Of a DNA stretch of 50,489 nt, positions 23,136 through 32,808 are shown one piece after another. A program made the position numbers and the translations under genes. Within the stretch, counting starts at the first letter, position 1. Each line of letters starts with the position of its first letter. Under the pieces are notes generated by a model. It made no database searches and was not told the DNA's origin. It saw only the letters and a program-made list of their open reading frames with translations. The stretch lies in assembly GCA_016182495.1 (NCBI GenBank), contig JACPGK010000009.1, forward strand, positions 1 to 50,489, read 5' to 3'. Origin of the DNA: Candidatus Kerfeldbacteria bacterium. GTDB taxonomy: Bacteria; Patescibacteriota; Patescibacteriia; UBA9570.

Positions 23136-23917
23136 TACTGGTTTAACAATTGAATAATTTTTCGGTGCAGGGTGGGATTCGCCGTCACAATTTGTTGATT
23201 AGTATCACGCCATTGCCAGCTACTGCCATCTAATCTGGTAATTTTACCGCCCGCTTCGCGCAATAATAATGCGCCAGCTGCAATATCCCACGGATACGCT
23301 CCGGCAATAATATAGGTATCTATCCGACCACTGGCCAGCGAGGCCATGGCTTGAGCAGCCGAACCATACGATTTATAGTAGGTGGTATACAACGCCAACA
23401 GGGCTCGCCAATGGGCAAAACGTTCTAGCGAGCTGCGGTGACGAATATTACTAATATACACCACCATTTCTTCCAGTTGTGTTTCGCTACTAACATGAAT
23501 ACGCTTACCATTGCAAAAACTTCCGGCACCGCGCTTGGCAAAAAATAATTCGTCATGAATCGGATCATAAATAACGCCGTGCGTAATAACATTGCCTTTT
23601 GCTAAAGCCACACAAACGCCAAATAATGGAACGCCGCGAGCAAAATTAGCAGTGCCATCAAGCGGATCAATAATCCAAGTATAATCACTACGGCCGGTTA
23701 ATTCACCAGCTTCTTCGCTAAGAATACTGTGGTATGGAAAACGCCGCCGAATCGCCGAAATCAACAATCGTTCCGAAGCGTAATCAACTTCGGTAACAAT
23801 ATCATGCTGCGAAGTTTTTTGTTGGCCGGTAGTAACAATGCCAAATTGTCGCTTGATAATTTTACCAGCCCGCACGCTAATATCTTGAATAAAACGATCA
23901 AGCGTAGTAGTGGTCAT
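23135..23917 (-). CDS. Inositol monophosphatase-family sugar phosphatase
   Basis: The 260-aa protein has the metal-dependent phosphatase motifs SEEAGE, the central WIIDPLDGTANFARG and the C-terminal AYPWDIAAGALLLREAGG. Family members hydrolyse inositol phosphate, fructose 1,6-bisphosphate, sedoheptulose bisphosphate or nucleotide substrates. Its place immediately after both transketolase subunits (4-nt overlap) favours a sugar bisphosphate as substrate, acting as FBPase or SBPase. That assignment is inferred from context only. Confidence 0.9.
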   Translation of the reverse strand: MTTTTLDRFIQDISVRAGKIIKRQFGIVTTGQQKTSQHDIVTEVDYASERLLISAIRRRFPYHSILSEEAGELTGRSDYTWIIDPLDGTANFARGVPLFGVCVALAKGNVITHGVIYDPIHDELFFAKRGAGSFCNGKRIHVSSETQLEEMVVYISNIRHRSSLERFAHWRALLALYTTYYKSYGSAAQAMASLASGRIDTYIIAGAYPWDIAAGALLLREAGGKITRLDGSSWQWRDTNQQIVTANPTLHRKIIQLLNQ

Positions 23918-24900
23918 TGCCGTTGCAGCAGACGTTTGATGGCAGCCACAATATCAACCGCTTTCATCTGAAATTTTCCTAATAATTCATCCGCTTGGCC
24001 AGATTCGCCATAGATATCATGCAACCCAATATATTCCATTGGTACCGGATACTGTCTGCTTAAAGTTTCAGCCACCGCTCCCCCTAACCCACCAATAATA
24101 CTAGCTTCTTCGGCTGTTACTACGGCTCCGGTTTTTTTAGCCGATGTCACAATGGTAGCTTCATCAAGTGGCTTAATGGTAGTTGAATCAATCACCTCAA
24201 CGCTAATAGTGCCTTCTAATTGTTTGGCTGCTAGTAGCGCTTGGTACACCAATGGTCCGCAGGCTACTACCGTTACATCGCTACCTTCGTAGAATACTTC
24301 GGCTTTACCAATTTGAAACGGGGTAGTTGGGGTAGTGAACACAGGGTATTTATCACGTCCAAACCGAATGTAACACAAATGGCCAACCGTAATGGTAGCC
24401 ATGGTGGCTTGTTGCGCCCGCACTGCATCGCACGGCGCTAACACTGTACAGCCAGCAATTGTTCGCATGGTGGCGATATCCTCCACCGCCTGGTGAGTAG
24501 CACCATCCGGGCCAACCGATACGCCAGCATGCGCTCCGGCTACTACGCCATGAAGATCATTATAACCAAAGGTAGTTCTAATTTGTTCCCAGCACCGACC
24601 AGGCGCAAAGGCAGCATACGAGGCCATGTATGGTATTTTACCAGCGGCCGCTAACCCTGCCCCAACGGTAATTAAATTTTGTTCAGCTACGCCAATTTCA
24701 ATAAAACGATCAGGAAAGGCTTTTTGAAATAAATTCGACCGGGTTGATTCGGTTAAATCAGCGCACAGTACCACTACCCGTGGATCTTGTTTACCTAATT
24801 CAACTAACCCTTGGCCGTAGCCATCGCGCGTACCAGCTTGTTTGATAGTAGCGGCATCGAATAGATTTGGTACTAAATTGGCGGATTGGTTTAAAGGCAT
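23914..24900 (-). CDS. Transketolase, C-terminal subunit
   Basis: The 328-aa protein covers the pyrimidine-binding and C-terminal domains of transketolase: VLCADLTESTRSN, the TPP-activating Glu in GVAEQNLITVGAGLAAAGKIPYMASYAAF, GPDGATHQAVEDIATMR, and the transketolase_C domain with EEASIIGGLGGAV. The other half is encoded directly upstream (5-nt gap). Split transketolases are frequent in CPR bacteria and archaea. The complex moves two-carbon units between sugar phosphates in the pentose phosphate pathway. Confidence 0.93.
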   Translation of the reverse strand: MPLNQSANLVPNLFDAATIKQAGTRDGYGQGLVELGKQDPRVVVLCADLTESTRSNLFQKAFPDRFIEIGVAEQNLITVGAGLAAAGKIPYMASYAAFAPGRCWEQIRTTFGYNDLHGVVAGAHAGVSVGPDGATHQAVEDIATMRTIAGCTVLAPCDAVRAQQATMATITVGHLCYIRFGRDKYPVFTTPTTPFQIGKAEVFYEGSDVTVVACGPLVYQALLAAKQLEGTISVEVIDSTTIKPLDEATIVTSAKKTGAVVTAEEASIIGGLGGAVAETLSRQYPVPMEYIGLHDIYGESGQADELLGKFQMKAVDIVAAIKRLLQRQ

Positions 24901-24905
24901 GGTGG

Positions 24906-25796
24906 TTATGTCATGTGGTCTGTTTCAATCTGTTGGCGCATTTTTGCTAAATCGGCTAAGGCAACCGGTAACTGATCGGCCTTGGAGGGTGCTCCTGGTA
25001 CATCACCTATACCGGGCGGGGCGCCGTGCCAAATATAATTATTTTCCATATAGCTCACGCCCTTGCCTGGTACCACATTGGCTAAAATCAACGTAGGACG
25101 ATGGTGCATACTTTTAGCTTCTTCCAGAGCATCAATAATGGCCTCCATATTATGACCATCAATTTCAATCACGTGCCAATTAAAGGCTCGATATTTATCG
25201 GCCAATGGATCCAGTGGCATGATAGTTTCAGTAGTGCCATCAATTTGAATGTAGTTACGATCCATGATCACGGTTAAGTTATCTAACTGCTTGGCCGCAG
25301 CAAACATCACTCCTTCCCAGGTATTACCTTCTTGTTGTTCCCCATCACTGGTTAAGCACCAAACCCGCTGGCTGGTACCATCCATTTTAAAAGCTAGCGC
25401 CATACCGGCCGATTGTGACGTACCGGAACCAAGTGGTCCACTGGTCGTTTCTAAGCCCGGTAAAGCACTACGGTGTGGATGACCTTGTAAGCGGGTGCCA
25501 AGTTGGCGTAAGGTCATTAATTCTTCTTTCGGAAAAAAGCCAGCCTGCGCCATGGTGGCATACAATACGGGACAAATGTGGCCATTTGATAACACAATGC
25601 GATCGCGCTCGGGCCAGCTAGGATTAGTAGGGTCAATCTTCGCTACATTAAAAAACAAGGCTGTAAAAATATCAGCCATGCCTAATGGTCCGGCGGAATG
25701 ACCCGATTTGGCCGCCGCTAAAGATGTCATGATATCCTGGCGGATATCCATAGCCTTCAGGCGTAAAGCTTTTAAATCGGTCAGGCGATGGTTCAT
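24906..25796 (-). CDS. Transketolase, N-terminal subunit
   Basis: The 296-aa subunit binds the diphosphate of TPP: KSGHSAGPLGMADIFTALFF at about residues 31-50, SNGHICPVLYA, GPLGSGTSQSAGMALAF and the TPP motif CLTSDGEQQEGNTWEGVMFA through MDRNYIQIDG. It starts with a 4-nt overlap with rpe and is followed by the C-terminal subunit, so the pentose phosphate genes are strictly coupled. Confidence 0.93.
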   Translation of the reverse strand: MNHRLTDLKALRLKAMDIRQDIMTSLAAAKSGHSAGPLGMADIFTALFFNVAKIDPTNPSWPERDRIVLSNGHICPVLYATMAQAGFFPKEELMTLRQLGTRLQGHPHRSALPGLETTSGPLGSGTSQSAGMALAFKMDGTSQRVWCLTSDGEQQEGNTWEGVMFAAAKQLDNLTVIMDRNYIQIDGTTETIMPLDPLADKYRAFNWHVIEIDGHNMEAIIDALEEAKSMHHRPTLILANVVPGKGVSYMENNYIWHGAPPGIGDVPGAPSKADQLPVALADLAKMRQQIETDHMT

Positions 25797-26422
25797 TGTT
25801 GTAGGTTGGCGATGGCAGCGGCAATATCTTTAGATTGAAAAATGTAACTATTTGAACACACAATGCTGGCGCCGGCTTTGATAATATCAGCTTTAGTGAC
25901 TGCATTAACTCCTCCATCCACCACAATTGATAAGGTTGGTTTTAAACTGCGCAGGTAAGAAATTTTTTCCAAGACATCAGCATTAAAGGCTTGCGCTGAC
26001 CAACCAGGCTCTACTGCCATAACCATTATGGCATCAACCTCATGTAAAAATTCCTTCACATCATAGGTGGGGGTATGGGGATTAATAGCCAAGCCGATTT
26101 TTTTTTCGAGCCCTTTGATTAACCGGATACATTCGGCCATGTTCTGCACAGCTTCGCGATGTACAAATATAGTGCTCACTTGCGGAAAGGCCCATTTCCG
26201 TAAAAACAAATCAGGATGATTGATCATTAAATGCAGCGATACCTGTAAATTGCCCCAATCTAATTCGGCCACGGCCTGGGCATCGTTGACAGTAGTATTC
26301 GGTACAAATTCTCCATCCATCACGTCGAGATGCACCTCATTACAAACCCCTTTCACCAGATTAAGTTTCCGTTGAATTTCGTTGATATCTTTTTCTAAAA
26401 TAGCTGGTTGAACTTGAATCAT
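25793..26422 (-). CDS. rpe: Ribulose-phosphate 3-epimerase
   Basis: The 209-aa TIM-barrel protein carries the expected metal ligands and acid/base residues: HLDVMDG (His and Asp), SLHLMI (His), MAVEPGWSAQAF, and VVDGGVN (Asp). It interconverts ribulose 5-phosphate and xylulose 5-phosphate. The loop usually written MSVNPGFGGQ reads MAVEPGWSAQ here, a mild deviation also seen in distant epimerases. It is the second gene of the operon, 5 nt after rpiB. Confidence 0.9.
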   Translation of the reverse strand: MIQVQPAILEKDINEIQRKLNLVKGVCNEVHLDVMDGEFVPNTTVNDAQAVAELDWGNLQVSLHLMINHPDLFLRKWAFPQVSTIFVHREAVQNMAECIRLIKGLEKKIGLAINPHTPTYDVKEFLHEVDAIMVMAVEPGWSAQAFNADVLEKISYLRSLKPTLSIVVDGGVNAVTKADIIKAGASIVCSNSYIFQSKDIAAAIANLQQ

Positions 26423-26427
26423 ACTGT

Positions 26428-26883
26428 TTAGTGCCAGTGTTGCTGTTCAAATTGTTTAATAGTATCAAGCCGGCGCAAATGTCGATCGGCTTGAGAAAAT
26501 GCTGTGTTCAACCAGATGTGCACAATGTCTTTAGCCATTGCTTCGTTTAACCAATCACCCGATAAGCCAAGCACATTGGCATCGTTATGCTCACGGGCAT
26601 GTTGAGCGGCTGTTACATCGTGTGGCGCTACTGCCCGAACATTTTTCACTTTATTGGCTGCTATCACCATGCCAGCAGCCGAACGGCAGGCCAATATGCC
26701 GCGATGTTCTTGAGGATGCCGAGCCACGGCTTGAGCCACCGCCAACGCAAACTGTGGGTAATCATCTTGAGCATCAAACTGCTGCGCTCCGATATCTTGG
26801 TATGGTATGTTCCACTGGTTGAGCCACTGTTTAATTTGTTCTTTTAGTTGAAATCCGCCATGATCAGCTCCCAGGTATACCAT
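26428..26883 (-). CDS. rpiB: Ribose-5-phosphate isomerase B
   Basis: The 151-aa protein has YLGADHGGFQLKE with the active Asp and His, and the family core at GILACRSAAGMVIAANK. The catalytic Cys and the downstream GM.IAANK are kept, but the usual CGTGIGM loop is CRSAAGM, so Thr is replaced by Ser and two Gly are lost. The HDVTAAQHAREHNDANVLGL segment is typical. It opens the sugar operon from a leaderless extended -10 promoter (TGC-TATACT, 6 nt before the ATG). Confidence 0.9.
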   Translation of the reverse strand: MVYLGADHGGFQLKEQIKQWLNQWNIPYQDIGAQQFDAQDDYPQFALAVAQAVARHPQEHRGILACRSAAGMVIAANKVKNVRAVAPHDVTAAQHAREHNDANVLGLSGDWLNEAMAKDIVHIWLNTAFSQADRHLRRLDTIKQFEQQHWH

Positions 26884-26901: not shown

Positions 26902-27624
26902 TTATTTGGTCTTTTCTACTACACTAGCCACGATACTTTCCCACTGTTCTACACTATGAACACCCAACACCAGCTGACCATTCACAAAGTAGGTAGGAGT
27001 AGCCGTTACTCCGCCTAATATGCCTTCATCGCGATCTTGCTGAATTTCGGCTAAATAGCGTTGCGATTCATAGCAGGCTGTGAAATCAGTCACATTAAGG
27101 CCTAGTTGGTTAGCCCAGGTACGGTAAATACCTGGCAGAGCTAATTTACTCTGTTCACTAAAAATTAAATCATGGTATTCCCAAAATTTATCTTGTTCGT
27201 TAGCACAATTAGCTGCTAAGGCAGCGTTGATAGCCTGGGGGTGTACTGAATCAAGTGGAAAATCACGATACACAAAAGCTACATCGGTTGGATGATTTTG
27301 CAATAACTGTATCATAATCGGAGCAGCTAATTCACAGTACGGACATTGAAAATCTTCAAACGATATAATTTGTACAGCAGCCTTAGGATTACCCCGAATA
27401 GGATCATCATCCCTACTGGGCACAAAGCCCGACACAACATTAGTAAGATTGGTCGCTGAATTAACCGTACTAGTATTAGCGAATTGTGAAATTTCACCCC
27501 GCTGAATTTTTTGATACTCCTGCAGTACTAACCAAATAAATAAAACGACCACAGCTACTATACAAACAATCACTACTAATCCTACCACTACCCAAAACCG
27601 TTTATACCACGGTTGATCATTCAT
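26902..27624 (-). CDS. Membrane-anchored DsbA-family thiol oxidoreductase (copy 2)
   Basis: The protein (about 240 aa) has an N-terminal anchor (residues about 10-35), a linker, then a thioredoxin-fold domain with CPYC in FEDFQCPYCELAAP at about residue 95, the helical insertion and the cis-Pro loop GVTATPTYFVNGQLV. The SIDPIRGNPKA-like region before the fold is typical of DsbA/NhaA-type membrane thioredoxins in CPR. I place the start at the ATG at 27624; the alternative is a TTG nine bases upstream. It overlaps the stop of the M56 peptidase gene and so belongs to the blaI-blaR1-like operon. Confidence 0.9.
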   Translation of the reverse strand: MNDQPWYKRFWVVVGLVVIVCIVAVVVLFIWLVLQEYQKIQRGEISQFANTSTVNSATNLTNVVSGFVPSRDDDPIRGNPKAAVQIISFEDFQCPYCELAAPIMIQLLQNHPTDVAFVYRDFPLDSVHPQAINAALAANCANEQDKFWEYHDLIFSEQSKLALPGIYRTWANQLGLNVTDFTACYESQRYLAEIQQDRDEGILGGVTATPTYFVNGQLVLGVHSVEQWESIVASVVEKTK

Positions 27625-28564
27625 ACAGTACAATGGTCATGTTCACAGGTATCGGTTGCGACATAATCGCCTGACAAATCGGCTGTTCCATTAAACACAG
27701 TTGCAAGGCGGGTGATGATTCCTGCTTGGCCAGCACCCGACCAGTGGTTAATAATACTACCATCACACTAGCGGCCATCAGTATCAGCCAGCGTAACCGT
27801 GGGCGAGCGGCTGATCGGCCGAGTAAACGATCGAGTCGAACATTCAGGCTAGAAAAAAAAGTGGCGGCAACTTTAGGTTGAGTGGCCGTACCAGATAATA
27901 ATTTCATTAATACTTGCCGCAGCTGATGATCGTCATTCATATCAGCATCAGCCGCCAATTCACGCATACCCATGAGATATTCCACCACTGCCCGGCTGAA
28001 CGGTAAGGCCGCTTGTACCAGGCTAAGACCAAAACGTTGTAATGGATCAGCATGGTGGGCGTGACTTAATTCGTGTCGCAACACGGCCCACAGTTCCAGG
28101 CCAGATAACGTAGCTTCTAAACCGGTACTAATATACACCTGCGGTTGCCATAAACCAATAGTAACCGCTACTGGTTCAACTTGATCTACTCGATGAACAA
28201 CTACTCCCTGACAAACCGTAGTTGAAATAGTATGCTGTTGTAACACATTATGTAAACGAGCAGTATTACGTATTATGGTGATGGCTGCATACCCTATGCG
28301 ACTGATTAACACTACTACTAACGTCACTCCGGCACCAATACTTAAGGCGATCCAGGGGGATTGCACAAATTCAACATACGAACTACAGCCACACGTAGCC
28401 ACCACTGTACCACTGAACTGCTGCCACCAAATAATTACCTGCGGCCAAAATTGATACCAGGCTACAGCTGCACTGATGATCAAACCACTGATGATCAACA
28501 CGAGCGTAATCAATGTGAACCAATACTGTCGACGTAAACTAGTAGCATTATTTAGCGCGTTCAT
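27617..28564 (-). CDS. M56-family membrane metallopeptidase, BlaR1-like without sensor domain
   Basis: The protein has several membrane helices (about residues 16-40, 58-85 and 225-245) and a zinc-peptidase motif HELSHAHHADPL at about residue 170, with a downstream Glu-containing helix (MRELAADAD). BlaR1/MecR1 proteins share this M56 domain but carry an extracellular penicillin-binding sensor at the C-terminus. Here only about 35 residues follow the last helix, with two Cys (LCLMEQPICQ) that could form a redox-sensitive pair. It is encoded next to a BlaI-type repressor (17-nt overlap) and should cleave or inactivate it on signal. Confidence 0.88.
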   Translation of the reverse strand: MNALNNATSLRRQYWFTLITLVLIISGLIISAAVAWYQFWPQVIIWWQQFSGTVVATCGCSSYVEFVQSPWIALSIGAGVTLVVVLISRIGYAAITIIRNTARLHNVLQQHTISTTVCQGVVVHRVDQVEPVAVTIGLWQPQVYISTGLEATLSGLELWAVLRHELSHAHHADPLQRFGLSLVQAALPFSRAVVEYLMGMRELAADADMNDDHQLRQVLMKLLSGTATQPKVAATFFSSLNVRLDRLLGRSAARPRLRWLILMAASVMVVLLTTGRVLAKQESSPALQLCLMEQPICQAIMSQPIPVNMTIVLYE

Positions 28565-28928
28565 CAATTTGACGCTTCAACTCTTTAAGTTTGCTGCCAT
28601 CAATCTCATCCAGCGCGTCCACAAATTGAGCAATAGCTAAATCGCCGTATTGACGCAACAGATTACCCAGCATAGTGCGCGATACAGTGGCATTAAATTG
28701 TTGTTCATTACGAGTAGCTTGATACAGGTAGGCTTTTTGTATTTTACGACGTTGCAGTATACCTTTTTTAGTTAGCCGTTCCATGGTGGTCATAACAGTA
28801 GTATAGGCAATAGCTCGCCGCTTATTCAATTCAGTGCATACACAACGTACATTCACTCGCTCGTAGCGCCACACAATATCCATAACGGTTTGCTCTAATT
28901 CTCCTAATGGTTTAGTAACAGAGGCCAT
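28548..28928 (-). CDS. BlaI/MecI/CopY-family transcriptional repressor
   Basis: The 126-aa winged-helix protein has LGELEQTVMDIVW, the recognition part RRAIAYTTVMTTMERLTKKGILQR, and a dimerisation tail, as in BlaI. The family binds TAC-containing dyads and is removed by BlaR1-type proteolysis. A 17-bp dyad overlaps its own -10 box. Two Cys lie together in the helix-turn-helix region (VRCVCTELNKR), an unusual CxC that might make DNA binding redox or metal sensitive. The next genes encode the M56 peptidase and a DsbA-like protein. Confidence 0.92.
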   Translation of the reverse strand: MASVTKPLGELEQTVMDIVWRYERVNVRCVCTELNKRRAIAYTTVMTTMERLTKKGILQRRKIQKAYLYQATRNEQQFNATVSRTMLGNLLRQYGDLAIAQFVDALDEIDGSKLKELKRQIDERAK

Positions 28929-28930
28929 AC

Positions 28931-28949
28931 TACTATCTAGTGTAGTATA
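28931..28949 (-). promoter_or_regulatory. blaI promoter with 17-bp BlaI-type operator
   Basis: On the plus strand TACTAT-CTAGT-GTAGTA (28931-28947) is a dyad with a 5-nt spacer and one mismatch. The minus-strand -10 TATACT (28944-28949) overlaps its right half. The dyad geometry relative to the -10 is identical at 29944-29962. An overlapping perfect dyad ATACTAC-N8-GTAGTAT spans 28927-28948. Confidence 0.7.
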
Positions 28950-28958
28950 AAGCTTTGG

Positions 28959-29798
28959 CTATGACAAGAGTTCACCAGCCGCTTGATAGGCTTGGGTGAG
29001 CACGTCGTGTCGTATACCAGTACGCTTGAATAGTTGTGTTAATGGCTGCTTCACAAATTGATCAATCACAATAATCTGCTGTTTGATGAGTAATTGTTTT
29101 TCTTGAACGGTGAGCATTGGCAACACTGTAATAGGGTATAAGCGCTGTTCTTCCAGCAGATGATTTAAACCTTCCCCCGCCGGAAAGTGCCAGGCCAACA
29201 AGCGCATCTGAACACATTGGGCATATTGAATAGCATCACTGGTAACTTTGGTATTCGTAATCACCCATGGTTGATAGTGTTGATCGGACAATTGATGGCG
29301 TTGCTGCCAAACAGCGCTAACATCTAAAAAACGAGCATACACATACAGAGCCACTTTGACATCTGTTTTAGCACCAATAAATTGATGATGCTTACACTCA
29401 ACCAAATAATGCTGATTTTTCTTTTGAGCAATAATATCAACTTCATGAGTAACACATTTTCCCGGCACTTGTTGATTGGTGCGCACCTGATAATTAAACC
29501 GTTCTAACACCTGGGCAACAAACTGCTCAAATGGATAGCCCGATGGCCCCAATTCCATAATGGCTCGTTTTAAATTATACCGAGCCGCGGCAGCCAGTTG
29601 ATTACGTTGCAGTAACAATTGGGCAGTCTTCACGTGTAAATGATTAGTCGAAGCTAAACTAGCATCATCAGCGGCTACCATTTCGGCTACTTCTTCTGCC
29701 AGGCTATGTTCTACACCAGCCGAACGCACGGATTGATACAGTTTGGTTTGATTAAACGGTTCAGAGGCGCCAGAGCCTTTTTGAATATGTTTGACCAT
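28959..29798 (-). CDS. ATP-cone / Mrr-like restriction endonuclease fusion
   Basis: Residues 1-85 form an ATP-cone (VKHIQKGSGASEPFNQTKLYQSVRSAGV…), the nucleotide-sensing module known from ribonucleotide reductase and NrdR. After a linker, residues about 95-200 are a PD-(D/E)xK nuclease: HEVDIIAQ supplies the Asp and YLVECKHH the ExK. A helical C-terminus follows. The fusion occurs in many bacteria, but its function is not established; a nucleotide-gated nuclease in DNA defence or repair is a fair guess. The ATG at 29798 is preferred because TGT-TATAAT lies exactly 6 nt before it. Confidence 0.82.
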   Translation of the reverse strand: MVKHIQKGSGASEPFNQTKLYQSVRSAGVEHSLAEEVAEMVAADDASLASTNHLHVKTAQLLLQRNQLAAAARYNLKRAIMELGPSGYPFEQFVAQVLERFNYQVRTNQQVPGKCVTHEVDIIAQKKNQHYLVECKHHQFIGAKTDVKVALYVYARFLDVSAVWQQRHQLSDQHYQPWVITNTKVTSDAIQYAQCVQMRLLAWHFPAGEGLNHLLEEQRLYPITVLPMLTVQEKQLLIKQQIIVIDQFVKQPLTQLFKRTGIRHDVLTQAYQAAGELLS

Positions 29799-29804
29799 AT
29801 ACAA

Positions 29805-29813
29805 ATTATAACA
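29805..29813 (-). promoter_or_regulatory. Extended -10 (TGTTATAAT) of the ATP-cone nuclease gene
   Basis: On the minus strand TGT-TATAAT ends 6 nt before the ATG at 29798. It immediately follows the terminator of the 18-aa gene. Confidence 0.6.
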
Positions 29814-29814
29814 T

Positions 29815-29854
29815 AAAAACGTAGGAAACGGTCGCGACTGTTTCCTACGTTTTT
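29815..29854 (-). terminator. Terminator of the 18-aa peptide gene
   Basis: A perfect 15-bp stem (29815-29829 with 29840-29854) encloses a 10-nt loop that contains GTCGCGAC. It ends in TTTTT on the minus strand and would work on either strand. It begins 13 nt after the 18-aa stop. Confidence 0.9.
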
Positions 29855-29867
29855 GTTTATGTTATAT

Positions 29868-29924
29868 TTAACAAGCGCATTGACCGCCACAATCGCAGCC
29901 ATCGCCACTTTTGAATGTATACAT
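29868..29924 (-). CDS. 18-aa Cys-rich peptide (CDCGGQCAC)
   Basis: An ATG at 29924 and TAA at 29868 enclose MYTFKSGDGCDCGGQCAC. Four Cys in CxCGGxCxC spacing at the C-terminus resemble a minimal metallothionein or metal-cluster site. Although tiny, it has its own promoter (TATACT, 29957-29962), a BlaI-type operator overlapping that promoter, and a strong terminator 13 nt after the stop, so a dedicated short transcript is very likely. The leader before the ATG (ATAATTAATATTGATTCT) nearly matches that of the 56-aa Cys-rich gene (ATAATTAATATCTCATTCT). Confidence 0.65.
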   Translation of the reverse strand: MYTFKSGDGCDCGGQCAC

Positions 29925-29943
29925 AGAATCAATATTAATTATT

Positions 29944-29962
29944 TACTACAGCTAGTAGTATA
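29944..29962 (-). promoter_or_regulatory. BlaI-type operator and -10 of the 18-aa gene
   Basis: TACTAC-AGCTA-GTAGTA (29944-29960) is a perfect 6-bp dyad with a 5-nt spacer. The minus-strand -10 TATACT (29957-29962) overlaps its right half with the same 2-bp offset as in the blaI promoter. It begins 19 bp upstream of the 18-aa ATG and 2 bp before the mauE stop. Confidence 0.72.
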
Positions 29963-30445
29963 TCAATGCTTCAACCACTTGTCAAACGACCAAAGATTGT
30001 GTTGAGTGATAATAAGAATACTGGTCAAAGCCAATAGAACAAGATCACGCCAAAGCAACTCCGGAAAAGTTTCGCCAAAAGAAAAACTTGAACCGAAACA
30101 ACCACATTCATCTAGGGTGCGACCACGACTCATATTAATAACAATACCAATAATAAACGATAACAATAATCCAGCAATACCGCCAGCCGCCAGCCGCCGC
30201 CATAATCCTACAATTACCAGTAAGCCAAACACCACCTCGGCCCATGGCACAATGGTAACGTACCAGGTAAGCCAGGGATCAGCTATAATATTCCATTGTC
30301 GAGCAATGCCAATAAACTCTTCAATTGGTTGAGTGAGTTTAGCCAGGCCAGCCAATACAAAAATACCGCCAACTAAACCTCGGCTGATAATAACTACCCA
30401 ATGATTATTCCAAATATTTTTGAATGGCCGTTCGGAGATTATCAT
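29963..30445 (-). CDS. MauE/DoxX-like membrane protein
   Basis: The 160-aa protein has four membrane helices and the MauE pattern: an N-terminal helix with FVLAGLAKLTQPIEEFIGIA, a central WAEVVFGLLVIVGLW, then the extracytoplasmic-face motif DECGCFGSSFSFGET and a last helix. MauE proteins assist disulfide formation in methylamine dehydrogenase, and relatives are regular partners of thioredoxin-like proteins. It overlaps the DsbA-like gene by 41 nt. It probably keeps that DsbA oxidised, a DsbB-like role, as no DsbB or VKOR is present in the window. Confidence 0.85.
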   Translation of the reverse strand: MIISERPFKNIWNNHWVVIISRGLVGGIFVLAGLAKLTQPIEEFIGIARQWNIIADPWLTWYVTIVPWAEVVFGLLVIVGLWRRLAAGGIAGLLLSFIIGIVINMSRGRTLDECGCFGSSFSFGETFPELLWRDLVLLALTSILIITQHNLWSFDKWLKH

Positions 30446-31031
30446 AACTACCTACTCCAACATAACGTTCATCGTTAATAAACAAGGTAGGAGTTGATGA
30501 CACTTTGGCATCTTTACCTTCAACCACATCTTCTTGTACAGCAGCGCGTTGTTCATGATTAGTGATACACGATTCAAATTGAGTGGTATCAAGAGCCAGT
30601 TGTTCAGCATAGATCACAAAGGTAGCAGTAGGATCACGTTCAATGCTCCAAATATCTTGCTGCTCGAATAACACATCATGGTATTGCCAAAATCTATCTT
30701 GCTGCCAAGCACATTGAGCGGCTTCGGCCGCAGCAAAACCATTGGGATGAATTTGTGTTAAAGGATAATCGTTGTATTGTAATTGAATGCTATCGCCAAA
30801 TTCATCAGCGGCGCGCTCCAATAACACTACCATTTGTTCACAAGCCGGGCATTGAAAATCGCTGTATTCTTTAATGGTTACTACCGGCGTGGTACCGCCC
30901 CGAATTGGATCGGGCGTAGTGCCGGGTTGTACCCCAGCTGGTAGCAAAAACTGTTGCATCAGAAAGATAGCCACAACAATTCCAAGTACAATGCCTCCAC
31001 CCACCACGATTTTTTTGGTAGTAGGGTTCAT
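30405..31031 (-). CDS. Membrane-anchored DsbA-family thiol oxidoreductase (copy 3)
   Basis: The 208-aa protein has an N-terminal anchor (residues about 8-28), then GGTTPVVTIKEYSDFQCPACEQMVV with the CPAC active site at about residue 60, the helical insertion, and the cis-Pro loop VSSTPTLFINDERYVG. It is translationally coupled to fba upstream (ATGA) and overlaps mauE downstream. The DPIRGGTTP segment before the fold matches DPIRGNPKA of copy 2, so the two are close paralogues. Confidence 0.9.
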   Translation of the reverse strand: MNPTTKKIVVGGGIVLGIVVAIFLMQQFLLPAGVQPGTTPDPIRGGTTPVVTIKEYSDFQCPACEQMVVLLERAADEFGDSIQLQYNDYPLTQIHPNGFAAAEAAQCAWQQDRFWQYHDVLFEQQDIWSIERDPTATFVIYAEQLALDTTQFESCITNHEQRAAVQEDVVEGKDAKVSSTPTLFINDERYVGVGSYDNLRTAIQKYLE

Positions 31032-31981
31032 TTAATTTTAGAAGCGTTACCAGCCGCACCAAAAGCAATTAAACGAGCAGCCACCATGGCTTTTAAAGCA
31101 GCTCGAGCTGGGCCAAGGTATTCACGCGGATCAAATTTATCGGGGTGTTCAGCAAAAAACTGTCGAATTGCTCCGGTCATAGCAATGCGACCATCTGTAT
31201 CTACATTAATTTTGCTGACGCCTTGTTGGATAGTGCTTTGCAATTGTTCAATATCAACCCCTTTGGTATCGGGCATTTGGCCACCATAGCGATTAACGAT
31301 GGCCACCAATTCAGCCGGCACCGATGACGACCCATGCATCACTAATGGCGTGGTGGGTAGCCGGCGATGAATATCTTGCAATACGCTGTGCTGCAGTTCG
31401 CATTTCTCTTTAAACTTATAGGCTCCGTGCGATGTGCCAATGGCAATAGCCAAAGAATCAATCGGTGCCTGTTGTACAAACTGTTCGGCTTGAGCAGGAT
31501 CGGTTACTAAAATACGCTTCACACCAGCGCCATCCTCTACCCCACCAATCGTACCAAGTTCAGCTTCAACACTCACACCCCGCGGCCGAGCATAGTCGAG
31601 CACCGCTTGAGTGATAGCGAGATTATCTGTAAAGCTTAAAGCTTTTTTACCAGATTCATCGAGTGAACCATCAATCATCACTGAAGTAAACCCTAAACCA
31701 ATGGCTGTTTTAACAACGGCTAAACTATTGCCGTGATCCAGATGCATGGCCATGGGAATTTCAGGGTGTTCTTCAGCGGCAGCCTGAATAATGTTGCGTA
31801 GATAAATTAAACGCGAATATTGTAAAGCACCGCGCGATACTTGAATGAACACGGGTGATTGCGTTTCGGCAGCGGCATCAATAATAGCTTGCACTTGTTC
31901 CATGTTATTAGCATTAAACGCACCCACGGCGTAGTGGTTGTGAAAGGCGTGATCGAGAATAATTTTACCAGGTACGAGCAT
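31028..31981 (-). CDS. fba: Class II fructose-bisphosphate aldolase
   Basis: The enzyme (about 317 aa) has the zinc-dependent aldolase motifs: VGAFNANNMEQVQAI, MHLDHGNSLAVV with zinc His, SVMIDGSLDESGK, AELGTIGGVEDG, GTSHGAYKF and LVMHGSSSVP, then INVDTDGRIA. It splits fructose 1,6-bisphosphate; some members also act on sedoheptulose bisphosphate. I use the ATG at 31981 (MLVPGK), because an extended -10 TGC-TACACT lies 7 nt upstream, rather than a longer start at 32002. It leads the fba-dsbA-mauE operon. Confidence 0.93.
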   Translation of the reverse strand: MLVPGKIILDHAFHNHYAVGAFNANNMEQVQAIIDAAAETQSPVFIQVSRGALQYSRLIYLRNIIQAAAEEHPEIPMAMHLDHGNSLAVVKTAIGLGFTSVMIDGSLDESGKKALSFTDNLAITQAVLDYARPRGVSVEAELGTIGGVEDGAGVKRILVTDPAQAEQFVQQAPIDSLAIAIGTSHGAYKFKEKCELQHSVLQDIHRRLPTTPLVMHGSSSVPAELVAIVNRYGGQMPDTKGVDIEQLQSTIQQGVSKINVDTDGRIAMTGAIRQFFAEHPDKFDPREYLGPARAALKAMVAARLIAFGAAGNASKIK

Positions 31982-31988
31982 AAAAAAT

Positions 31989-31997
31989 AGTGTAGCA
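31989..31997 (-). promoter_or_regulatory. Extended -10 (TGCTACACT) of fba-dsbA-mauE
   Basis: On the minus strand TGC-TACACT ends 7 nt before the ATG at 31981, which gives a leaderless mRNA. A BlaI-type dyad lies at the -35 position. Confidence 0.58.
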
Positions 31998-32005
31998 AAC
32001 AATCA

Positions 32006-32022
32006 TACTACCGGCAATAGTA
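32006..32022 (-). promoter_or_regulatory. BlaI-type operator upstream of fba-dsbA-mauE
   Basis: TACTAC-CGGCA-ATAGTA has the same half-sites, 5-nt spacer and single mismatch as the blaI operator. It covers the place where the -35 of the fba promoter would be (about 32012-32017). Confidence 0.6.
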
Positions 32023-32144: not shown

Positions 32145-32384
32145 ATGATTTTTCAAACAACACTTACCCAAAAAGGTCAAATTACTATTCCAAAAGGTAT
32201 TCGTGACATTTTAAAACTATCCCCGTTCGCTAAAGTTCGCATTCGCTTGGCTAACGATCAAAAAACTGCTCTGATTGAACCAGCGGAAGATTTTATCAAC
32301 CTGGCTCAACAAGTAACAGTAAAGAAAAAACATAACCCAATAAAAGCTCGTGAACTGCTGGAGCGCCGCTATGAAAGAATTTAG
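32145..32384 (+). CDS. AbrB/SpoVT-type antitoxin (VapB-like)
   Basis: The 79-aa protein has a swapped-hairpin AbrB domain: TTLTQKGQITIPKGIRDILKL, then VRIRLANDQKTALIEP. The C-terminal tail of about 30 residues (LAQQVTVKKKHNPIKARELL) would wrap around the toxin. It overlaps the PIN toxin gene by 14 nt. The two form a type II toxin-antitoxin pair, with the antitoxin binding the repeats just upstream. Confidence 0.88.
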   Translation: MIFQTTLTQKGQITIPKGIRDILKLSPFAKVRIRLANDQKTALIEPAEDFINLAQQVTVKKKHNPIKARELLERRYERI

Positions 32385-32808
32385 CGTTTTTATTGACACT
32401 AATATTTTTTTACGTGTCTATACACGCGATCAAGAAAAAAAAGCCAAAGAATGTGAAACTGTACTGCGCGCTATTCAGCAAGGCAAAATTATTGCGGTAA
32501 CAGCCGAGATTGTATTGGCGGAATTTATTTGGACTTCGTTAAGTTATTATGATATTCAAAAAGAATCTGTCATTGCTATGGTAAAAGCAATTGTGGCGTT
32601 ACCTAATCTGCATGTTCAAGGAGTATCTGATATGCTCACCGCCATTGAATTCTACGAACAGCACTCAATTAAATTCATTGATGCCATTATTGCCTCGTGC
32701 GAGTTAGTGCGAGTGGGCACTTTACCAATGTTATCATACGATGCTGATTTTGATAAAATTGGCATCAAACGCTACGAACCAGCTGATTTGCTTAAACGCA
32801 TTGGATAG
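32371..32808 (+). CDS. vapC: PIN-domain ribonuclease toxin (VapC-like)
   Basis: The 145-aa PIN protein has catalytic acids in SVFIDTNIFLRVY, an internal Glu in EIVLAEFIW, an Asp in KFIDAIIASCEL and the final LSYDADFDKIG. VapC toxins cleave tRNA or rRNA in a Mg-dependent way. I start at the ATG at 32371, which overlaps the antitoxin stop; an upstream GTG would add seven unlikely residues. It ends 2 bp from the convergent ahcY stop. Confidence 0.88.
   Translation: MKEFSVFIDTNIFLRVYTRDQEKKAKECETVLRAIQQGKIIAVTAEIVLAEFIWTSLSYYDIQKESVIAMVKAIVALPNLHVQGVSDMLTAIEFYEQHSIKFIDAIIASCELVRVGTLPMLSYDADFDKIGIKRYEPADLLKRIG

Follow-up and report, generated by a model that had tools for sequence, protein, structure and literature searches.

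Known mainly from antibiotic resistance, the BlaI family probably protects the cell surface from copper-related and thiol-related damage in a member of Candidatus Kerfeldbacteria (Patescibacteriota; Patescibacteriia; UBA9570). The DNA in question is a stretch of 50,489 nucleotides (the window), which is contig 26 of the 38 contigs of a 1.3-Mb genome (assembly GCA_016182495.1, contig JACPGK010000009.1); in it a blaI-like repressor gene adjoins the gene of an M56-type membrane metallopeptidase, and three 17-bp dyads lie at promoters. From operators that can be read directly in this and related genomes we infer repressor binding, proteolytic cleavage, a signal and a membrane topology, and the reading that they compose, a regulon of one BlaI-type repressor and its M56 partner triggered by copper (or by oxidation), is held with fairly good confidence. 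BlaI dimers would sit on TACTAY-N5-RTAGTA sites over the -10 or -35 and hold target promoters shut. The M56 protein, which lacks a beta-lactam sensor, would sense what happens outside the membrane by way of a CGC loop and a cysteine-containing tail; excess copper bound by these residues, or their oxidation, would activate the cytosolic HExxH domain, which would then cut BlaI near a conserved Q-F pair (AQFVD; predicted site Q101-F102). Derepression would supply proteins that export or bind copper, proteins for disulfide exchange in the envelope, HtrA, a cysteine mini-peptide and the blaI-M56 pair itself.

Operators in the window and in the genome

All three dyads described in the initial annotation are present with the positions and sequences it gave, and the genes read from them lie on the minus strand. 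Operator 1 (TACTATCTAGTGTAGTA, 28931-28947, minus strand) stands 2 bp before the blaI ATG, operator 2 (TACTACAGCTAGTAGTA, 29944-29960, minus strand) overlaps the -10 of the promoter of the peptide (TTGACA-17-TATACT), and operator 3 (TACTACCGGCAATAGTA, 32006-32022, minus strand) does cover, as proposed, the -35 of the promoter of fba (TTGCCG of TTGCCG-17-TACACT). The further claim that a TATACT -10 overlaps the first two dyads at the same offset holds in part: the string does overlap both at one and the same offset, but the better fit for blaI is TTGTCA-17-TACACT, the -10 TACACT being contained in operator 1 at 17 bp after TTGTCA. Three matches to TACTA-N7-TAGTA in the window compare with 0.04 expected from dinucleotide shuffles.

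The genome-wide scan that had been called for used TACTAY-N5-RTAGTA as the strict pattern, TACTA-N7-TAGTA as the relaxed one and the reversed pattern as control. The strict pattern is enriched (9 matches vs 3), and seven of its nine sites are intergenic, just 5' of genes and in promoters (p ~3e-6 at 10% intergenic DNA), whereas only 8 of 38 one-mismatch sites are intergenic and the rest lie in genes (Fisher p 0.0025 vs the strict sites). Given that one-mismatch sites are mostly intragenic, only the strict promoter sites are believed; because relaxed patterns also stand at the control level, one-mismatch sites were dropped as targets. One of them, which precedes the gene of a DUF4399-like lipoprotein (L079), could be genuine.

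Three of the seven promoter sites are those of the window, and open reading frames, Pfam and NCBIfam give their targets as blaI-M56-dsbA, the 18-residue cysteine peptide and fba-dsbA-mauE. The fourth site (C1:34477) precedes a small membrane protein, followed by an HMA-DsbD2-cupredoxin protein and a CopA-type Cu-ATPase, with another Cu-type ATPase and a YHS-ABC protein encoded directly upstream. The fifth (C7:20851), a 17-mer identical to that of blaI, fronts a DsbA with a cysteine-rich N-terminus (CAGCSCEAGQCSCGAC) and thioredoxin reductase; the sixth (C15:10903) fronts HtrA and then two cupredoxin proteins, and the seventh (C13:32514) a GldA-type ABC exporter. Cupredoxin genes lie near or under operators, although petE and petJ themselves were not searched for.

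Conservation in the family, the order and the class

The operators are kept in related genomes. The comparison covered this genome and three other genera of the same family (G001-G003), each with one BlaI orthologue, 49-56% identical. Strict sites outnumber controls in all three (14 vs 1, 7 vs 3 and 4 vs 0), giving 34 vs 7 over the four genera, whereas six genomes of the same order, which have no match to BlaI or only one of 35% identity, hold 3 strict sites vs 9 controls (Fisher p 3.5e-4 for the two ratios). One of these six (G006, BlaI 35% identical; L097) has another 17-bp dyad, ACCTAT-N5-ATAGGT, before blaI, a possible case of operator drift.

Sites also recur at orthologous operons. The window layout of blaI, peptide and fba sites is repeated in G001. 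A site is kept at the DsbA gene beside the phosphoenolpyruvate carboxylase gene in four genera (in G003 at a contig end), at HtrA in three, at the ABC exporter in two, and at a Cu-ATPase/DUF3105/DsbA/CcdA/Lgt block or its parts in G001-G003; G001 adds sites at ArsR-CcdA-TlpA and a thioredoxin-like lipoprotein. Directly 3' of the operator of the copper/Dsb block, three genera encode small membrane proteins rich in cysteine, methionine and histidine that have no Pfam match (L055:3157-3498, L063:3642-3983, L023:5500-5895). A best-fit -10 or -35 overlaps 21 of 22 family operators examined, but because the promoter search picks the best fit near each site, it is the shared offsets and not this raw fraction that count as evidence. 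In three genera each, the -10 begins 3 bp into the operator at blaI promoters and 2 bp before it at peptide promoters, and the -35 lies inside it at htrA promoters; the geometries of operators 1 and 2 are those found at the orthologous sites in G001 and G002.

The arrangement extends to other families of the class. A profile of the M56 protein finds it in 50 of 286 class genomes; a BlaI gene is present in 39 of the 40 M56 loci read. Within ~200 bp upstream of blaI an operator with at most one mismatch occurs at 26 of these 39 loci and is perfect at 16; over all 628 gene starts of the test and control loci together, the same criterion yields 38, the blaI sites included. The class consensus is TRCTACANNNTGTAGTA, i.e. 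TACA-N3-TGTA plus flanks. Fifteen genomes picked for a perfect blaI site contain 52 sites vs 16 controls, or 37 vs 16 once the 15 picked sites are subtracted. Often a second operator comes right after M56 and stands ahead of genes for HMA(GMHCRSC)-DsbD2-cupredoxin proteins, for regulators of the CsoR type or for thioredoxin folds like those of DsbA/GILT. Known copper or thiol genes occur at 24 of the 39 blaI loci, as against 4 of the 20 stretches taken as control. In several class genomes (L134, L140, L145, L152, L153, L164) a protein of ~250 residues without a solid Pfam match stands directly behind the second operator, often adjoining DUF1573 or thioredoxin-fold genes. Upstream of blaI in relatives from Chloroflexi and Thermoactinomyces no matching 17-bp dyad was found. 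Behind the BlaI-M56 pair, Chloroflexi relatives have CcdA and TlpA/SurA-like genes in one case (L045) and DUF1573 and TlpA/SurA-like genes in another (L046), from which the thiol link may predate the class.

By these comparisons the strict 17-mer is a conserved operator, kept before orthologous operons in four genera and, across the class, before blaI. The claim that the blaI-like gene controls its own operon, the peptide and fba-dsbA-mauE is likewise supported by strict-site enrichment, promoter location and orthologue conservation. Neither outcome that the initial annotation named as refuting it, chance frequency over the genome or dyads not kept at orthologues, was obtained for the strict pattern, and its interpretation was in essence right. 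Judged from its sites, the regulon is larger than the initial annotation saw and adds copper exporters, thioredoxin reductase, HtrA and CcdA.

The repressor, the protease and the signal

Copper (or silver) is the more likely signal when set against pure thiol stress, though sequence cannot separate the two; two things favour it: in distant families operators stand directly before genes that handle copper, and the PetR/PetP system of cyanobacteria, a pair of the BlaI/BlaR1 type, is copper-responsive. The target classes that speak for a copper- or oxidation-triggered regulon are HMA/DsbD/cupredoxin proteins, Cu-ATPases, DsbA, CcdA, TlpA, TrxB and HtrA. The presumed sensor is a protein of 315 residues (27617-28564, minus strand) with HELSH and RELAAD motifs, whose residues H164, E165, H168 and E202 (HExxH plus a downstream E ligand) are invariant. 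Its hydrophobic segments and charge distribution predict a protease domain inside and, outside, a CGC in the first loop and a short C-terminal tail with C-x6-C. All six M56 proteins compared from the order have the CGC; across the class ~23 of 40 have CXC in the first loop and 39 of 40 a cysteine in the tail.

The same cysteines could serve another signal. In an alternative that is possible but clearly the less favoured, the regulon would answer an imbalance of thiols and disulfides in the envelope, brought about by oxidants or misfolded disulfides; the CGC would be a disulfide switch, and the copper genes would respond only to such damage as copper causes. CXC motifs are able to form disulfides, and thiol exchangers (DsbA, CcdA, TlpA, TrxB, MauE) are, along with HtrA, the most conserved targets. 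However, HMA-DsbD2-cupredoxin copper genes are directly fronted by operators in several distant families, and copper is what the BlaI/BlaR1 relative known from experiments outside drug resistance responds to.

Metal could instead be bound by BlaI itself, in the manner of CopY, with M56 only aiding turnover. The repressor (126 residues, 28548-28928, minus strand) is a full-length member of its family (PF03965, Penicillinase_R winged helix: 89.7 bits against a cut-off of 22.6, residues 8-123), is the only copy above the cut-off in this genome and has a dyad operator at its own promoter, as is usual in the BlaI/MecI/CopY family. Its alignment with S. aureus BlaI and MecI covers the full length, that with M. 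tuberculosis BlaI the N-terminal part; among its solved relatives (2g9w, 1sd4, 1okr) the M. tuberculosis protein Rv1846c (2g9w) is the closest by sequence. It contains a CXC (VRCVC), and its best NCBIfam score is to CopY_TcrY (TIGR02698, 48.5 bits, under the 121.95 cut-off). Yet CopY binds metal at a C-terminal CXC, which is absent here, and the VRCVC cysteines are poorly conserved: the second varies in G001-G003 and neither is kept in other families. Direct metal binding is consequently improbable. Most BlaI relatives do keep a [QH]-F pair, which lies in the part of the chain at which the staphylococcal repressors are cleaved.

That the pair is a BlaI/BlaR1 system for beta-lactams is more improbable still. 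The repressor does belong to the BlaI family, and the best PDB fold matches of the M56 model, a low-confidence one, are BlaR1 structures of S. aureus (top 8exs, E 1.1e-6). The M56 protein, however, ends ~36 residues past the last membrane helix with no penicillin-binding sensor domain, and no beta-lactamase is found among the targets. The initial annotation had held the signal to be probably thiol or metal stress and not a beta-lactam; the latter part agrees with what is seen, while copper should be ranked at least level with thiol. Lastly, the idea that the dyads are chance sequence draws on relaxed versions occurring at control frequency and is negligible in view of strict sites enriched only together with BlaI, placed in promoters and kept upstream of orthologues and of blaI class-wide.

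Several observations do weigh against a copper-triggered BlaI-M56 regulon. In this genome the relaxed pattern is at chance level (14 matches, against 12 to its reversed form) and the one-mismatch pattern shows no enrichment (49 vs 46). Two strict matches, at C21:25489 and C30:725, lie inside genes and were set aside as chance. A copper or thiol role is not obvious for fba or the GldA-type ABC exporter, and at 15 of the 39 class blaI loci no copper or thiol gene was recognised by the queries used. The first loop of ~17 of 40 class M56 proteins has no CGC; moreover, the protein studied here scores 22.8 for Pfam M56, under the cut-off of 31, and could be modelled only poorly (predicted local distance difference test 66).

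Control of copper by a BlaI/BlaR1 pair (PetRP) and by a BlaI relative (CopY) is already known. Synechocystis PetR/PetP (PMC7896320, PMC10141476, PMC13421787) are a BlaI-family factor and a BlaR1-family, copper-responsive protease; as in the pair studied here, a BlaI-type gene adjoins a membrane metalloprotease gene, and both copper and a cupredoxin, in that case plastocyanin, are involved. The PetRP regulon comprises four proteins in a plastocyanin/cytochrome c6 switch, whereas here it would span copper export, Dsb/CcdA/Trx, HtrA and blaI. Staphylococcal BlaI/BlaR1 and MecI/MecR1 share with this pair an operon of winged-helix repressor and zinc protease, autoregulation, an operator over promoter elements and the BlaR1 fold; they differ in their operator (TACA/TGTA as cited, against a TACA-N3-TGTA core within a 17-mer), and the present pair has no beta-lactam sensor domain and a multi-operon copper/thiol regulon. 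CopY/CopR of Firmicutes, with the operator RNYKACANNTGTMRNY (PMC7253601), belong to the same repressor family and control copper ATPases, but CopY takes metal through its C-terminal CXC, needs no protease and has a central spacing of N2 and not N3. In the literature searched, with most subscription papers out of reach, no BlaI-M56 regulon was found in which copper export and Dsb/CcdA/Trx/HtrA come under one control, nor was any found in Patescibacteria.

These results suggest a use of BlaI/BlaR1-type switches in envelope copper and disulfide control far outside the cyanobacteria. Few stress regulons are known in the small genomes of such bacteria, which are hard to cultivate, and a promoter code readable from sequence is therefore useful. 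The candidate sensor residues (CGC loop, cysteine tail), the predicted cleavage site and the 17-bp operator are all testable. Such genes should not be annotated as penicillin-resistance regulators. More broadly, M56 proteins devoid of a sensor domain, with a C[GD]C loop and a cysteine tail, may form a class-wide extracytoplasmic copper/thiol receptor acting through destruction of BlaI, with CAC-ending peptides of 10-18 residues as a dedicated effector (mini-metallothionein); this is a tentative proposal, plausible but short of probable.

The cysteine peptide and neighbouring genes

The peptide behind operator 2 is a predicted open reading frame of 18 residues (MYTFKSGDGCDCGGQCAC, 29868-29924, minus strand), with syntenic CAC-ending peptides in G001 (MVLGGDGCAC, plus a frame that lacks a usual start codon and ends in GGEGGCCEGGECAC) and G002 (MRNIGGEGCCGNCAC and MKTQGGEGCAC). 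An intrinsic-terminator hairpin 3' of the gene (29815-29854), which has counterparts at the corresponding position in G001 and G002, makes the peptide gene a stand-alone short transcript. Three genera thus have predicted CAC-stop frames and terminator-like hairpins at this locus, and two of them have the frames in tandem (L054:7500-7780; L064:6709-6960); five of the six such short frames in 281 kb are at this locus. The simplest guess from sequence is a short thiol-rich metal-binding peptide. Attenuation by the peptide was considered and rejected, since the downstream gene seems to own a promoter past the terminator.

That gene, between operators 1 and 2, encodes an ATP-cone plus Mrr-type nuclease protein (28959-29804, minus strand) for which control by BlaI is not evident; the fusion is kept between peptide and blaI in three genera (in G001 and G002 at L054:6621-7541 and L064:6909-7778). 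Downstream of M56 the operon continues with a membrane-anchored DsbA-like thioredoxin-fold protein (26902-27624, minus strand), after which rpiB, rpe and a split transketolase (23914-26883, minus strand) run in the same direction and in the order also seen in G003. The same genes lie close downstream of the pair in a different family (L147), a conserved pentose-phosphate link. Behind operator 3 follow, all on the minus strand, the class II fructose-bisphosphate aldolase gene fba (31028-31981, ATG at 31981), which is preceded by an operator in G001 as well, a second DsbA-like protein (30405-31031) and a MauE/DoxX membrane protein (29963-30445). No Rfam elements were found in 26-34 kb of the window. 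A divergent pair of AbrB/MazE-like and PIN-domain-like genes (32145-32808), likely a toxin-antitoxin module, adjoins operator 3.

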